From Theocolax elegans (lineage: Eukaryota > Arthropoda > Insecta > Hymenoptera > Cerocephalidae): a stretch of 64,000 nt of DNA. Below, piece by piece: positions 50,159-63,730 of this stretch (position 1 is its first letter; each line of letters opens with the position of its first letter). Location of the stretch: the NCBI GenBank assembly GCA_026168455.1, contig CM047426.1, positions 27,773,058-27,837,057 of the forward strand, read 5' to 3'. Position numbers and translations under genes: made by a program. The notes under the pieces were generated by a model. That model was given only the letters and a program-made list of their open reading frames with translations. It did no database searches and was not told where the DNA came from.

Positions 50159-50400
50159 TGATGAAGTTGCGATCGGCCCTTAAGTCGATTTCCCCCACTA
50201 CCTTATAGACAATTGAAGCGCACGGTGTTCGTCGGAGGGCTTACTCTCTGCTCGGCTACCGATCCGTTTAGATCTATATACGGCGCACCCGCGAACTACT
50301 TTTACAGTTTATATTTTTGCATATATATATTAATAAATAACTTTAAGTGAAGTGTAAAAGTGAGGCGAGTTTTATTGCTGCCATCTCTTAATTTCCATCA
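50159..50400 (+). repeat. copia 5' LTR
   Basis: Begins TGATGAAGTTGCG and ends ATTTCCATCA. CTATATACGG near 50275 is a possible TATA box and AATAAATAA near 50330 a possible poly(A) signal. Confidence 0.9.
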
Positions 50401-57823: not shown

Positions 57824-58064
57824 TGATAGAGTTGCGATCGGCCCTTAAGTCGATTTCCCCCACCACCTTATAGACAATTGAAGCGCACGGTGTTCGTCGG
57901 AGTGCTTACTCTCTGTTCGGCTACCGATCAGTTCAGATCTATATACGGCGCACCCGCGAACTACTTTTACAGTTTATATTTTTCATATATATATTAATAA
58001 ATAACTTTAAGTGAAGTGTAAAAGTGAGACGAGTTTTATTGCTGCCATCTCCTAATTTCCATCA
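57824..58064 (+). repeat. copia 3' LTR
   Basis: TGATAGAGTTGCG ... ATTTCCATCA; about nine substitutions and one indel from the 5' LTR. TSD TATAT follows. Confidence 0.9.
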
Positions 58065-58869: not shown

Positions 58870-59026
58870 CTGTTTGGAATTTTTGTAATAAAATTTATTT
58901 AAGGATATGTCGGTGTTACGTACGTAACATCGACGCGCGGATCGGCGCGTGTGTGAGAACGGTGTAGGATGACCGAAACGCGAAATATCATGACGAATGC
59001 AACTACAACAAGAAATCGCGGACGGT

Positions 59027-59092
59027 GGCCTAGTGGTTAGGTCTCGTGACTGGAAACTCGCGGATCCTCGGTTCGAGTCCCGACGTCCGATC
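59027..59092 (+). repeat. tRNA-like pseudogene or SINE head
   Basis: GGACGGTGGCCTAGTGGTTAGG and CGGTTCGAGTCCCGACGTCC give A and B boxes and a five-pair acceptor match (GGACG/CGTCC). The T-stem has mismatches and no clean cloverleaf forms. It lacks a poly(A) tail or TSD that I can see. Confidence 0.5.
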
Positions 59093-59255
59093 AATTTTTT
59101 ATTCGGTTCTCTCCTATCACCTTCTCCATACGCAACATTAAATGTTAAATAATATTAAATGTTTTAAATGTTAATAAGTATTAAAGTTAGCGATAAATTT
59201 GAAATTAACCAATTATATTACCTTGCAAAGACTCTTGTATTTCCGTAAGGATTGA

Positions 59256-59407
59256 TTGTCGCGAGCTGGTAATTTTATTTATTTATTTAGTCATTTTCAT
59301 GCATTATACTATGTTAGTTATTTGATTGGAATACTTAAGCTTATATTTATAAGCAGGAGAAAAGAGAAGAGAAGAAAAAAAATATTGGGAAAATAAATGT
59401 TTAACAA
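59256..59407 (-). repeat. possible 3' LTR of the env-bearing element
   Basis: On the minus strand, AATAAAGGGT is followed by TGTTAAACATT, a TATAAATA box about 60 bases on, AATAAATAAATAAA and ...GCGACA. This order would suit a short LTR just downstream of the last ORF. Without the partner LTR, which is outside the window, it stays a guess. Confidence 0.2.
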
Positions 59408-59449
59408 CCCTTTATTATTATTATTAATTAATTTATTTTTTTCAAGCCT

Positions 59450-60805
59450 TTACTTTGTCTTGTTATCTCCTTTTTCCTCAGAAAATACACTTCTTAACTC
59501 GTCCATATATGAGGGTGTATTTAGTGTGATCAATTCTAAGGTGTCCTCGGGGGCCATTGACAAGAAGTTATAGAGGGCTTCCATTCCTCTTTCTTCGTTA
59601 TTTCCATTTTCCTCCAATATCTGGCCATAATTCTGTGGTTTTGTTAACTTTGGTGTATAATAATCAAATTTGGCCATGTTGCATATTTTCAAGTGCTGCG
59701 TCCATTCTGCTTCTCTGATTAATTTTTCGCAAAATCAATGATCTTTTGTTTTATGGCACCTCATTTGTTACATATATCTACGTGTGTTTCAAAATGCTTC
59801 TTATTGACCCATGTTTTACATGGGACGTGATATTTTTTTAAATCATGGTGTGGGGTGTCACACGGTCGATTTTTCTTGTAGGACCAACTAGGCTTATAGG
59901 CGACGGCCATTTCAATTGCCCTTTTGGCCTCCTCTTCGTTTACATAGGTAACAAACCCGTGATAGGATGGATGCTGATTATCGTACTTGGGTTCTCTCAT
60001 TTTTACCCAATAAATGACTTCGATTTGGCCATATTCTGCGAAAGTTCTTTTGAACTGTTCTTCTGATGTCCCCCAGGGAATCAAAACATGTAAGCGATGG
60101 GAACTTAAATCTTTACTGGGTTCTAATTGGCCACTCTCCTCTGCTTCTGGATTTGGCCCCGCTGCTTCACTTAATCTTGCTTCTTCCAAAGCTTCCTCTT
60201 CTTCTTGGTTTTGTCGCCATTGGTCAACAGGATTCATGGTCTGATTTATAAGTGGGCCAAGACTTATTATTGTTTTTGTTAAAGCTGCGATACTATTAAA
60301 AATGATTTCTAGCGTAAAATTTGGGCCAACCGTTCGGATTTCATGTGAGATTATCTCGCCTGTCCTTCTAATGAAATTTATTAGCATAGACCCTATATCT
60401 TCTCGTTCGTACAATATGGCCAGTCCCCTTGACTCGTTGGTAATAGGGTGAAGGCCAATTAATGAAACTCCTTGCAATGAGTCTCTTTCAAATATGGGTT
60501 GTGCCCGGTTGTGTGCGATGATTTGAGCATACATCTCCTCTCTCGTAAGTCTTCTCATTTTTAACAAATCGATTTCTCTGGCCATTTGATTACGTGTTTC
60601 TTCTGTTTTGAAATGAGCTACTATTCGGCCATTTCCATCATCCAGGAGTGTATTGGTATATTGTACCAGGTCGGGACAAGTGAAAAACTCCCGAACTGCT
60701 TCCGCGCTTAACTCCGTTGAGTTTTGATAATAAATTATCAACGTATGTGGCCCTTCCTTTTTAGTCGAAATTACATTCATTGTTTCCATATTTTCGGCCA
60801 TTTTC
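59450..60805 (-). pseudogene. accessory gene 2: triple RRM-like protein with tandem HCHC zinc motifs
   Basis: ATG at 60801 follows a splice acceptor, poly-T then ACAG/GAAA (acceptor AG at 60806-60807). The first 346 residues have RRM-like regions at about 18-80, 112-180 and, clearest, 236-302 (HRLHVLIPWG as RNP2, then HGFVTYVNEEEAKRAIEMA as RNP1 plus helix). An acidic linker lies at 195-230. A motif H-x2-C-x11-H-x3-C spans residues 325-344. A TGA at 59761 ends the frame, but another frame at once continues with a second H-x2-C-x11-H-x3-C (stop inside it) and 80 more residues to 59450. The gene is thus recently broken near its 3' end. The RRMs predict RNA binding; resemblance to RBM45-type RRMs is faint. 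It is related to accessory gene 1. Confidence 0.65.
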
Positions 60806-60821
60806 CTGTAAAAAAAAAAAA
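60805..60821 (-). other. splice acceptor before accessory gene 2
   Basis: A 11-base T run then ACAG on the minus strand, four bases before the ATG; a strong pyrimidine tract and acceptor. Confidence 0.7.
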
Positions 60822-61073
60822 TTAGATTAGTTAAGATATATTTGTGTGCGTTTTTTTTCCCAAGTTTCTGCAAAAGGAAAATAATGGTTATTATTTTAAA
60901 ATATAAAACACTTTTAATTGTTAATAACCCATAACCTTGCCCCCCTTTGTTAAATTTTTGGACGACACAAGGACAAAACAATATAGCACATTTATAATAT
61001 TAATGTATTCGCGTACTATACGTGAATTTAATCTGTTTTTGATGTTTTTATTTTCTTGGTTAATCCTTGATTT

Positions 61074-61788
61074 TTAGTACACCACTTGTGGTTCCCATTG
61101 ACGAGGAGATATGTTTGCGCCACATAATTCATGTATTGGCCAGTGTTGTTCTATTTCCTTCTGCTGCCAGAATGTTTGTCTTTGCAACCTACATGTTTTT
61201 GTATGCATTTCAAATATATCAATGTTTATTTGTCTCAAGCATGCTAAATGCAATTTTTGTGGTAAATTGCCATTTATCATGCATTTTCTGGACAGGATTT
61301 TCTTGTCTAAATATTTTGGTTTATATATGGATTCTGCTTCCTTCAATGCCTTTGCTGCTTCTTCTTCGGTAGAGTACTGTATGTATGCATGAGTTGGCGT
61401 TCCTTCGGCGTTATATAGTATTTGGTGATAGTCTAATTGGCCAAATTGTACAAAATGTTGGAAAAACCTTTCCTCACGTTCCATGTTGCTGTCTGTAAAT
61501 GGTAATTGACAGAATAGTCTTCTGTGATCCTTTTCTCTGTTCCCTGTCTTAGCAATTTCTCTTTTGTGTTGTCCTTTATTGTTATTTTTGTAATATATCA
61601 ATGCTTTATTGAAAGAGGATTTGTCCATATAGTTTATGATGATGATCTTATGTCTGGTTCCTAGGTTATTTAAAACACGTAAGTTTATTATTTGTCCAAA
61701 TTGTTGGTACTCGGTTATTGTTTTGCCAAGTGCTTGTCCCTGGTCAAATGTCATTCTCAATTCTGGAAATCCTATGTTTGATTCCATT
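61074..61788 (-). CDS. accessory gene 1: RRM protein with HCHC zinc motif
   Basis: 237 intact residues from ATG at 61787, one base after a splice acceptor TTAAGTTACAG (AG at 61789-61790). Residues 8-66 are RRM-like without clear RNP motifs. Residues 89-155 are a good RRM: RLFCQLPF (RNP2), FFQHFVQFGQLDYHQIL, HAYIQYSTEEEAAKAL (RNP1 and helix 2). Residues 180-199 carry H-x2-C-x11-H-x3-C, identical in spacing to accessory gene 2, and a weaker second H/C cluster follows (209-222). It overlaps the end of env by 44 bases in another frame. It presumably binds RNA, perhaps element transcripts; that is inference. I know no errantivirus with such a gene. Confidence 0.7.
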
Positions 61789-63730
61789 CTGTAACTTAAA
61801 TTGGTTCTCAAGATTAGACCAATGCATTGGTTGTATAAAATTTTTTTTCAAATTATCAGTAAGGCATTGTTGAGGTGGCAAGTACGAGGATTTGGTTGGG
61901 GTCTTTTGGATAAGATTATCAGAAGTTGTGTTGTGTTCTACGTCTTCGTTACGTTGGTCTGTTCTACTTGTAATGTTTTGTATTATATCTTTGTTTCTTT
62001 TGTGTACGTTTGTCCTTCTCTTCCTTCTGTTGTTGAGCATTTTCCAAAAGGTTATAATTAGTCCAATTATGATAATTTGTGATGATATGATGCCATATAT
62101 CATATAGTGGGTATTGTTTAATTCTCTCTTATGCTGTCCAATCTCTTTCATTTTCGAGATTATTTGATGTATGGATTTGTCTCTAGCATACCAAATATCA
62201 GGTGCTTCATGAGTCAATTGTAATTTCTTGTATTCGGGGTCCTTAAATATTGGGTAGATTTCTGAAATATTTAAATTTATTTCGGGTTTATATATGTATT
62301 GGCGATTGTTTTTGCGGATAACCTCCTGTGTTAATTCATCTGTTTCTGTCCTAGCTGAGCAAGTAGGAGCTAATCTTAAGATTCCTACCCCCTCGATAGC
62401 GGTTAGTTGATCTGGTTGATTTGTACAAGTTACGTGTAATATTTCCCTTTTTAGTGTGGAAAATATCCACGTTCCATCGGCTTGTAAATAACTCTACTGA
62501 GTATTTGTATTTGTTTTTAATATTATGTTATATTTCCTCAAGTTATCATGTTCTGGGGTCAATAACATTGATAACTCACAATCTTCGTGTGAGGAGGTGT
62601 CTTTTAATGATTCTTGTATGGGGTATATGAGTGTATAATGTGTTCGTATACACTCATTAAATAATTGGCTGTGTATTTTTAAATATTGTTTCTGGTTTGC
62701 TGCCAGCATAAGATAGTCATGTGAGGGTACTATTTGCGCTGTACCGATAGCGTTGTTGAGTTTGTCATATTGTGGCACGCCTAGTGGATGTAGTCTGTAC
62801 AATTCGTATTCTGTTCTATCTACTAGGGGTAGGTATAGTACTGTTAATACTCTACCCTGGTTATTGGTAGTATCTATTTTTGCTATTTTAGCAATTTCTT
62901 CGGGTCTTAGATGCTCTGTTTGGACTGTCCACTACAATTTGTTGTAAAATTGTGGGTCTTAACAGTCCTGGGTGAACTCGTCCTTCTTTTAATAATTGTA
63001 AAATTTTTAAGAACTTCTCACAACTATTTATTAGGTGATACATTTTTGATTCTACCCTTCTACTGTAACTTATTAGGTTCATCATATACTTCATTTTATT
63101 TTCTCGTTCTTGAAAATCTTTTATGTGTTGATTCATTATTTCTTCCATTTGGTGTAAGGTTTTGTCGTGTAATTTTGTAATGTTGTATATTTCTTCAAAT
63201 CCTGTTGTGATTATATATGTCTTTTCTTCGGTTAATTGTACCAGTGTTTTCTGATCCTCGGAAAGCTTATCAATGTTCTTGTTTAGCATGTTTAGGTCAT
63301 CCTCCGTTATTAGGCCAAATAAACTTTTACTCAAGGATCCTACAATTCCCAATGGTGCTAATCTCTTTACTTTTATGCTTCTTGGTTGTCTAATTTTGGT
63401 GTGGTCTTCGAGTCCAATATTTAAAATTGTTTCTCTAATTTCTCGATGTACATTTTCCAGTTTTTGTTGTTTTATTTCTATCAGATCCTTTACTAGTATG
63501 TCCTTACATTCATCTGTTCTAAATCTTTGTACACATCGGAGATAAGTAACTATATACGATTTAATGGGTCCATGATCTTGTAAAAATTGGTTCACTTCCA
63601 ATGAGATTGCTAATTTCCAACTAGTTCTTCTAAGTTTTATTGTATCTATTTTTTCGTAGTATATCCCAGGGTTTGAGAGTACATGGCTTATTACAAAGTT
63701 TGTATTTAACCAATCATATAAGAGAATTTT
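61744..63730 (-). pseudogene. env: errantivirus-type envelope (F-like) glycoprotein, broken
   Basis: On the minus strand after the end of pol. The open frame starts near 63730; its head holds NPGIYYEKID, a motif common near the N-terminus of insect retrovirus Env and baculovirus F proteins. RQPRSIKVKR is a furin-like site, followed by a fusion-peptide-like segment with GIVGSLSKSLFG. Long helices follow, and late in the protein a transmembrane segment (MIYGIISSQIIIIGLIITFW, about 62100-62040) and a cytoplasmic tail of some 130 residues. A frameshift near 62935 and an in-frame TAG near 62492 inactivate it. No signal peptide or start codon is clear; an upstream spliced exon may have supplied them. 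Confidence 0.8.
61788..61799 (-). other. splice acceptor before accessory gene 1
   Basis: TTAAGTTACAG on the minus strand ends one base before the ATG, so the gene can be read from a spliced message. Confidence 0.6.

Follow-up and report, generated by a model that had tools for sequence, protein, structure and literature searches.

Organization of the locus

In the genome of the hymenopteran insect Theocolax elegans (Cerocephalidae), a 64,000-nucleotide stretch of contig CM047426.1 (GenBank assembly GCA_026168455.1; C2:27773058-27837057 in the contig numbering used here), hereafter referred to as the window, carries in its last 5 kb, on the minus strand, pieces of an envelope gene (env) followed by two open reading frames, ORF1 and ORF2, each encoding an RNA recognition motif (RRM) and a zinc motif of the form H-x2-C-x11-H-x3-C. 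This segment represents the 3' portion of an old errantivirus-like endogenous retrovirus copy, the env of which is broken; the term errantivirus-like is based on env and gene order. A preliminary description of the window had proposed that such an element captured an RNA-binding gene and duplicated it, and this proposal was followed up in the 658 Mb assembly of the host (1,277 contigs). Consistent with an arthropod, the assembly has 58 matches to the cuticle domain Chitin_bind_4, of which 14 control genomes have none.

The env of the window copy was described beforehand as F-like, which is borne out by Pfam Baculo_F matches in two of its three pieces, although the gene as a whole is not intact. 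The N-terminal piece of this F-like fusion glycoprotein (62888..63730, minus strand, as are all features below; E 1.5e-11) ends in a frame break, and the middle piece (62494..62931; E 3.1e-9) lies in a different frame and terminates at an in-frame stop. The C-terminal piece (61744..62493) is an open frame with a hydrophobic stretch and a tail; it has no Pfam env match, and it corresponds to the same region of the locus L015 and of the F2 loci introduced below, where it lies downstream of the other env pieces.

ORF1 (61787-61074, 237 amino acids) begins with an ATG that overlaps the end of env, and its RRM core (residues 105-151, 61335..61475; Pfam RRM_1, E 4.3e-8) is followed by the zinc motif (residues 180-199, 61191..61250) and a further 38 residues. 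ORF2 (60801-59761, 346 amino acids) has its RRM core at residues 241-297 (59911..60081; RRM_1, E 8e-7) and the same zinc motif at residues 325-344 (59770..59829). Both RRM_1 scores exceed the Pfam gathering score, and the positions, the strand, the RRMs and the identically spaced motifs of the two ORFs are thus as first described. The statement that both proteins end in the motif is not general: besides the 38 additional residues of ORF1, the ORF2 of L006 (family F1) and of L017 and L019 (F2) runs about 100 residues further and includes a second H-x2-C-x11-H-x3-C. The window ORF2 stops just past its zinc motif because its frame is broken there, and the C-terminal part, with part of the second motif, is found in a separate frame (59450..59734) that is continuous with ORF2 in those three copies. 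An acceptor-like pyrimidine tract with AG (60806..60823) lies 4 nt upstream of the ORF2 ATG, and a second acceptor-like site ends at 60868. Comparison with other copies assigns a further segment past the last frame to the element (59185..59449), 59185 being the point at which homology ends for four of seven other copies (L003, L005, L006 and L008); in the remaining three, homology to the window copy stops earlier.

Complete proviruses carrying both genes

Related copies elsewhere in the genome were assigned to families labelled F1 to F4 in this analysis, F1 being the window type. No pair of long terminal repeats (LTRs) was found for the window copy when its 3' part was compared with upstream sequence, and two F2 copies (C1:20.03 Mb and C5:77.6 Mb) have LTR-type sequence downstream, with none found upstream in direct orientation; the position of ORF1 and ORF2 relative to the LTRs was therefore assessed in F3. 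The F3 provirus at C3:12789344-12805460 has 610-bp LTRs that are identical over all compared bases (357/357 and 354/354, in overlapping pieces), that start with TGTTACATGCC and end with TATAACA, and that are flanked by the target-site duplication CGAG. A second complete copy on C5 likewise has identical LTR pieces (465/465 and 246/246), with CTAAA duplicated on both sides. Between the F3 LTRs lie gag (492 amino acids), a pol frame of at least 1,598-1,639 amino acids, env (674 amino acids), ORF1 (347-367 amino acids) and ORF2 (286 amino acids). The measured provirus of 16.1 kb also includes a leader of about 3.9 kb without any coding-strand frame longer than 75 amino acids, a purine tract just before the 3' LTR and, after the 5' LTR, a stretch that is presumably a primer site of the lysine-tRNA type. 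ORF1 and ORF2, being inside the LTRs of two complete proviruses, are part of the element.

Between the C3 and C5 copies, identity is 99.8% across 5,562 bp and 99.3% across 7,301 bp. ORF1 and ORF2 are both open at eight F3 loci, six of which also retain an env frame of 664-674 amino acids. Given the identical LTRs, the near-identical copies and the open frames, the F3 lineage was mobile recently and carried both genes. A third F3 copy (C4:45.2 Mb) and the locus L028 showed no repeat pair in the sequence compared.

The LTR-type sequence around the F2 copy at C5:77.6 Mb is inverted on its two sides (L031 64-1006 and L051 1060-2115), and it is also palindromic, with 99.7% identity over 943 bp.

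Families and gene order

At an E-value threshold of 0.001, the host genome contains at least 79 matches to ORF2 and at least 106 to ORF1. Within F1, the seven best other ORF2 matches are 82-95% identical to the window ORF2. The F2 loci (L017-L022) are 46-49% identical to the window in ORF1 and 40-42% in ORF2, and F3 and F4 are more distant still. The order env-ORF1-ORF2 was read in F1 (L015 with L007), F2 (L017, L018, L019 and L021) and F3 (L023, L024 and L025), while in F4 an ORF1-type frame is followed by an ORF2-type frame in L027, L062 and L063, all three with an env match upstream. The four related families thus have this order in common. Upstream of env, L015 contains Integrase_H2C2 (E 2.8e-23) and rve (E 5.8e-8), and the two ORFs, as the preliminary description held, belong to a gypsy/errantivirus-like element, which now rests on four families and the two complete F3 proviruses.

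Several individual loci depart from this layout. In L026 (C1:61010693-61013107), env and an ORF2-type RRM-zinc part are fused in one open frame of 805 amino acids, flanked by 760-bp repeats that are 98.6% identical; by eye, integrase-like sequence directly follows the 5' repeat, and gag and most of pol seem to be absent. At L020 (C7:49617000-49626900), a unit of about 2.18 kb comprising part of ORF1 and an ORF2 is present three times in tandem, with the repeats nearly identical; either the cassette was amplified, with no env in the sequence inspected there, or the assembly is at fault. Roughly 5 kb away from one of the ORF2 copies, L016 carries at 126-773 (C2:5590325-5590972) a gene resembling a viral glycoprotein of another type, the open frame of which matches Monjiviricetes_fusion (PF24664; E 1.1e-65). 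The locus L002 was considered as a spliced copy; by eye, its env junction is a 10-base microhomology and not GT-AG, and it is therefore regarded as a deletion.

Linkage of the env clade with the RRM genes

The association was quantified with an F3 env fragment as query, which gave 150 scored env matches among 426 candidates, or 141 places after the pieces of broken copies had been merged. An env place was counted as linked when an RRM match lay within 6.5 kb downstream on the same strand, the RRM matches being those to ORF2 (79), ORF1 (106) and human RBM45 (133). Among env places with at least 35% identity to the query, 60 of 74 have a downstream RRM match, and 36 of these have two; among those below 35%, the count is 0 of 67, with the proviso that RRM genes too diverged for these queries would escape. 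The same tally with the ORF1 and ORF2 matches alone gives 58/74 (25 with two) and 0/67, and one with 141 of the 150 env matches and 159 hand-picked RRM places again gives 60/74 (35 with two) and 0/67. Many of the 14 env places without a downstream match seem to be fragments. Three of the 67 distant env places were also read directly (env of 673-749 amino acids) and showed no RRM and no finger in the following 1.4-1.7 kb; the best match to a family profile (E 0.01) was a 42-residue frame within the env part.

The contrast between 60/74 and 0/67, together with the complete proviruses and the common gene order, indicates that the association is old, specific to one env clade and not due to chance. 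The preliminary description had named the pattern expected of a coincidental association, namely copies ending at env and an LTR with the two ORFs solitary elsewhere; this was checked and does not hold, in view of the linked env places and of the two proviruses that enclose both ORFs. ORF1 and ORF2 are almost certainly genuine accessory genes of the element.

The zinc motif

The four zinc ligands and their spacing are invariant in the aligned frames, which are chosen open frames, ten each of ORF1 and ORF2; some decayed copies, such as L057 and L063, lack all or part of the motif. Shuffling of the protein sequences reproduced the motif in 27 of 200,000 trials for ORF1 and in 9 of 200,000 for ORF2. 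No zinc family, zf-CCHC included, appeared among the Pfam matches of the ten ORF1s and ten ORF2s up to E 5, a search in which the HMMER filters drop most weak matches. The spacing recalls, in our estimation, the C2HC fingers of PF13913.

A resemblance of the second half of the motif to CHHC fingers such as those of the piRNA factor GTSF1 had been suggested at the outset and is not upheld. The CHHC finger of GTSF1 and U11-48K has the spacing C-x5-H-x9-H-x3-C, which differs from that of all 20 aligned frames, and no CHHC protein was among the seven matches up to E 10 of a profile of 13 fingers searched against the PDB, which contains proteins of this type. The best match in that search, ORC3 (E 0.0057), covers the first half of the motif only and was read as chance.

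Relation of ORF1 to ORF2 and probable origin from RBM45

Profiles were built from the ten ORF1s (A1) and the ten ORF2s (A2). Compared with each other, they match across the RRM-zinc part with a probability of 98.8% (E 1.4e-16), in agreement with the relatedness first noted. Against the PDB, RBM45 ranks first for both: with A1 at 1.3e-9, the next other protein following at 5.1e-5, and with A2 at 5.4e-19, the next following at 4.8e-12. It is well supported by these comparisons that ORF1 and ORF2 are paralogues in which an RRM most like that of RBM45 is followed by one or two H-x2-C-x11-H-x3-C fingers. In a tree of 22 RRMs, the ORF1s of F1-F4 group together (87/89), which suggests that ORF1 and ORF2 separated before the four families did.

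The host has its own RBM45 gene, exon-split at C1:5945702-5946882, without an H-x2-C-x11-H-x3-C finger in the 2 kb read. Its RRM2 exon matches A1 with 96.5% and A2 with 95.2% probability, and when the host genome was searched with human RBM45, host RBM45 came first and 12 of the next 20 matches were element ORFs, identified by overlap or by a nearby env upstream. In RBM45, an Arg and a Phe in RNP2, together with a Tyr in RNP1, are the residues that read the adenine and the cytosine in GAC (PMC11402289). On the alignment, where the placing of these residues is that of this analysis, all ten ORF1 members keep Arg, Phe and Tyr. The idea of a captured RNA-binding gene has thereby gained a best candidate, and from the family profiles, the ranking in the genome and the host RBM45 exon, RBM45 is probably the source of both genes.

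Several observations weigh against this origin. The window ORF2 alone finds RBM45 first in the PDB with an E-value of only 0.0021, and the window ORF1 alone does not find it among its four matches, the best of which has E 1.1; since single ORFs match RBM45 poorly or not at all, the link rests on the family profiles. In the tree, the ORF2s fail to group together, and the join of the element RRMs to RBM45 RRM2 is weak (61/69), with long branches flagged. In ORF2, the Arg is kept in 10/10, the second place is His in 8/10 or Phe in 2/10, and the Tyr is replaced by Phe in 10/10. The RRM genes might instead derive from another mobile element, for example the ORF1 of a long interspersed nuclear element (LINE), or from another RRM gene. 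Such a donor, which would fit both the absence of RBM45 from the PDB matches of the window ORF1 and the weak tree join, as well as the limited specificity of RRM profile scores and the frequency of RRMs in LINE ORF1 proteins (PMC4120745), is nevertheless an improbable source: the lead of RBM45 over the next PDB protein exceeds four orders of magnitude with A1 and is about seven with A2, RBM45-like sequence can be followed by eye past the RRM, with a YKAVxAxPx-type stretch common to F4 and host RBM45, and no LINE ORF1-like CCHC knuckle was matched.

Searches for homologues elsewhere gave little. ORF1, ORF2 and A1 had no match at E 0.001 in protein collections in which few insect genomes are expected, and scans of viral contigs with A1 and A2 gave no match either, an absence that says little for the same reason. 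In PHROGs at E 1, ORF1 had no match and ORF2 a single weak one, to a family of unknown function.

Selection, splice-acceptor-like sites and proposed cassette exchange

ORF2 is under purifying selection in F1. The ratio of nonsynonymous to synonymous divergence (dN/dS) is 0.16-0.21 at dS 0.46-0.51 in 12 pairs across two F1 subgroups, which represent one split and not 12 independent tests, and 0.19-0.57 in the other nine F1 pairs, all of low divergence. In F3, with one pair for each gene, the ratio is 0.31 for ORF1, 0.21 for ORF2 and 0.50 for env, and in F2 it is 0.10 and 0.31 for ORF2. Values for ORF1 are higher in F1 (0.59 and 0.75), and in F2 they range from 0.20 to 0.49, apart from one pair without synonymous change and the pair L019-L021, at 1.73 on eight changes; the ratio is noisy where changes are few.

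An acceptor-like AG lies 4, 3 and 10 nt upstream of the ORF2 ATG in F1, F2 and F3, respectively, compared with a background of 0.9-1.5% of positions having such a site within 30 nt upstream.

Throughout pol, the F1 copy at C7:33.6 Mb and F2 are 97-100% identical per segment compared. The identity at the DNA level then falls to about 65-75% in env and to 51-66% across the env tail plus ORF1; for ORF2, the DNA identity between L006 (F1) and L017 (F2) is 45-65%. This steep drop at the pol-env boundary is read as recombination that moved env-ORF1-ORF2 as a cassette.

Proposed function and alternatives

The explanation that best accommodates the whole, with slightly less than an even chance of being right, is that ORF1 and ORF2 form a conserved RBM45-like accessory pair that regulates the element's own RNA. 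ORF2 would be made from a spliced subgenomic RNA, and both proteins, for which RNA binding is suggested by the conservation of RRM and finger residues, would associate in the nucleus with the transcript of the element itself, ORF1 possibly at GAC-type sites, as the residues with which RBM45 reads A and C are kept. In this way, the pair would determine how much of the RNA stays unspliced as genome and how much is spliced into the messages for env, ORF1 and ORF2, a role akin to that of Rev or Rex of complex retroviruses but performed by a captured cellular splicing factor. RBM45 is described as a regulator of splicing (PMC11402289) and as required, by way of intronic splicing enhancers, for a parvovirus B19 message to be spliced and to mature (PMC7064759); for these reasons, control of splicing or export is the best single guess for the main function, and a tentative one, ranked before packaging and, in third place, antagonism of silencing. 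A more far-reaching account, which is somewhat unlikely in its entirety, is that the lineage became a "complex" retrovirus by taking RBM45, adding a zinc finger and doubling the product; the proteins would read marks or motifs on the viral RNA, such as GAC, perhaps in an N6-methyladenosine context, and thereby switch it from genome to spliced messages or back, while env, ORF1 and ORF2 would move together as a cassette among gag-pol backbones.

Some results speak against RNA regulation of this kind. No acceptor-like site was found ahead of ORF1 in the three copies tested or ahead of ORF2 in two F4 loci, and the acceptor rule was fixed only after the sites had been noticed. Enrichment of GAC is weak and uneven: F3 env has z 2.5 and rank 4 of 64, with 12 paired GACs against 3.4 expected, while GAC is below expectation in F3 ORF1 and in the F2 leader, and the enrichment is not taken as support. 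A single-sequence structure model of ORF1 was unreliable (predicted local distance difference test score 33).

Genome binding or packaging, in which the RRM-zinc proteins would accompany the genomic RNA in the particle or act as nucleic-acid chaperones, is an unlikely alternative. It is suggested by analogy with the zinc knuckles of retroviral nucleocapsids and with RRM-plus-zinc ORF1 proteins of LINEs, by the absence of a CCHC knuckle from the three Gag frames examined and by the invariance of the zinc ligands across the aligned frames; the succession of one or more RRMs and zinc modules also parallels that of type I LINE ORF1 proteins (PMC4120745). Yet several errantiviruses lack a CCHC array in Gag regardless (PMC2774666), the distant env-bearing copies of the host genome show no RRM gene, and ORF2 is a frame separate from gag that begins, in F1-F3, after a splice-acceptor-like site.

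Slightly less likely again, and improbable, is a role as silencing antagonist, in which the proteins would attach to small RNAs or to the precursors of these, or else to components of the piRNA or siRNA machinery, and so shield the element's transcripts. Silencing of env-carrying gypsy elements by piRNAs in insects, reported in PMC13172572, provides a setting for such a role, and the env-ORF1-ORF2 part is far more diverged than pol (in one F1 versus one F2 copy), as could occur under conflict. The step at the pol-env boundary is, however, better explained by recombination with a diverged cassette than by fast evolution, ORF2 in F1 is under purifying selection, and the finger has no listed match to GTSF1-type CHHC proteins.

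Finally, that the two ORFs are chance neighbours, as host RRM genes or another repeat beside decayed elements, could not have been ruled out from the broken, LTR-less window copy by itself, but is extremely improbable in view of the two complete proviruses, which are bounded by identical LTRs and target-site duplications and contain both ORFs, the linkage counts and the same gene order in four families.

Neighbouring features

Upstream of the window, pieces of a transposon with PF13843 (DDE_Tnp_1_7) lie inside the upstream part of the window's element (L009; C2:27836300-27841300). On the other side, immediately beyond the element end, a tRNA-like prediction with undefined anticodon occupies 59018-59092. 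Two 160-nt direct repeats at 50159-50318 and 57824-57983, 96% identical, bracket copia-like-looking frames (52-57.7 kb) and are probably the LTRs of a neighbouring element.

Significance and comparison with known systems

Vertebrates are known to have complex retroviruses that encode regulators of their own RNA, and gypsy-type retroviruses of arthropods are described as gag-pol-env. If the proposed function is correct, RNA regulation in retroviruses would have arisen independently in this element, from a known cellular gene and with a testable binding motif, and env and accessory genes would travel jointly as a module; if the proteins are piRNA antagonists instead, it would be a retroelement carrying a silencing antagonist. 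The proteins would further provide naturally occurring RBM45 RRM variants coupled to a zinc finger that matches no library family searched. No description of RRM genes in such elements was found in a literature search that covered titles and the beginnings of abstracts, with most subscription journals, preprints and repeat databases outside its scope.

An extra ORF is also common to several families of LTR retrotransposons of bdelloid rotifers (PMC5408684); those additional ORFs (ORF3) are DEDDy-like and GDSL-like, and the text makes no mention of an RRM. Type I LINE ORF1 proteins likewise combine an RRM with subsequent zinc modules within a retroelement, whereas the finger of the present element is H-x2-C-x11-H-x3-C and not a gag-like CCHC knuckle, its genes are placed after env, and its RRM is nearer to RBM45 by profile. 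Relative to RBM45 itself, with whose RRM2 the element RRMs have most in common and whose Arg, Phe and Tyr are kept in ORF1, the element differs in the added zinc fingers, in having two paralogous genes and in being a retroelement.

The element agrees with errantivirus-like Ty3/gypsy elements with an F-like env (Metaviridae) in gag, pol with integrase, F-like env, LTRs and short target-site duplications, and also in the lack of CCHC in the three Gag frames read; it differs in the two RRM-zinc genes added after env, in the size of the F3 provirus and in its long leader without long ORFs. The likeness to Rev and Rex lies in small accessory proteins with putative RNA-binding activity and, for ORF2, in the position behind an acceptor-like site; the proteins of the element differ from these in their RRM fold, and this likeness is one of presumed function.

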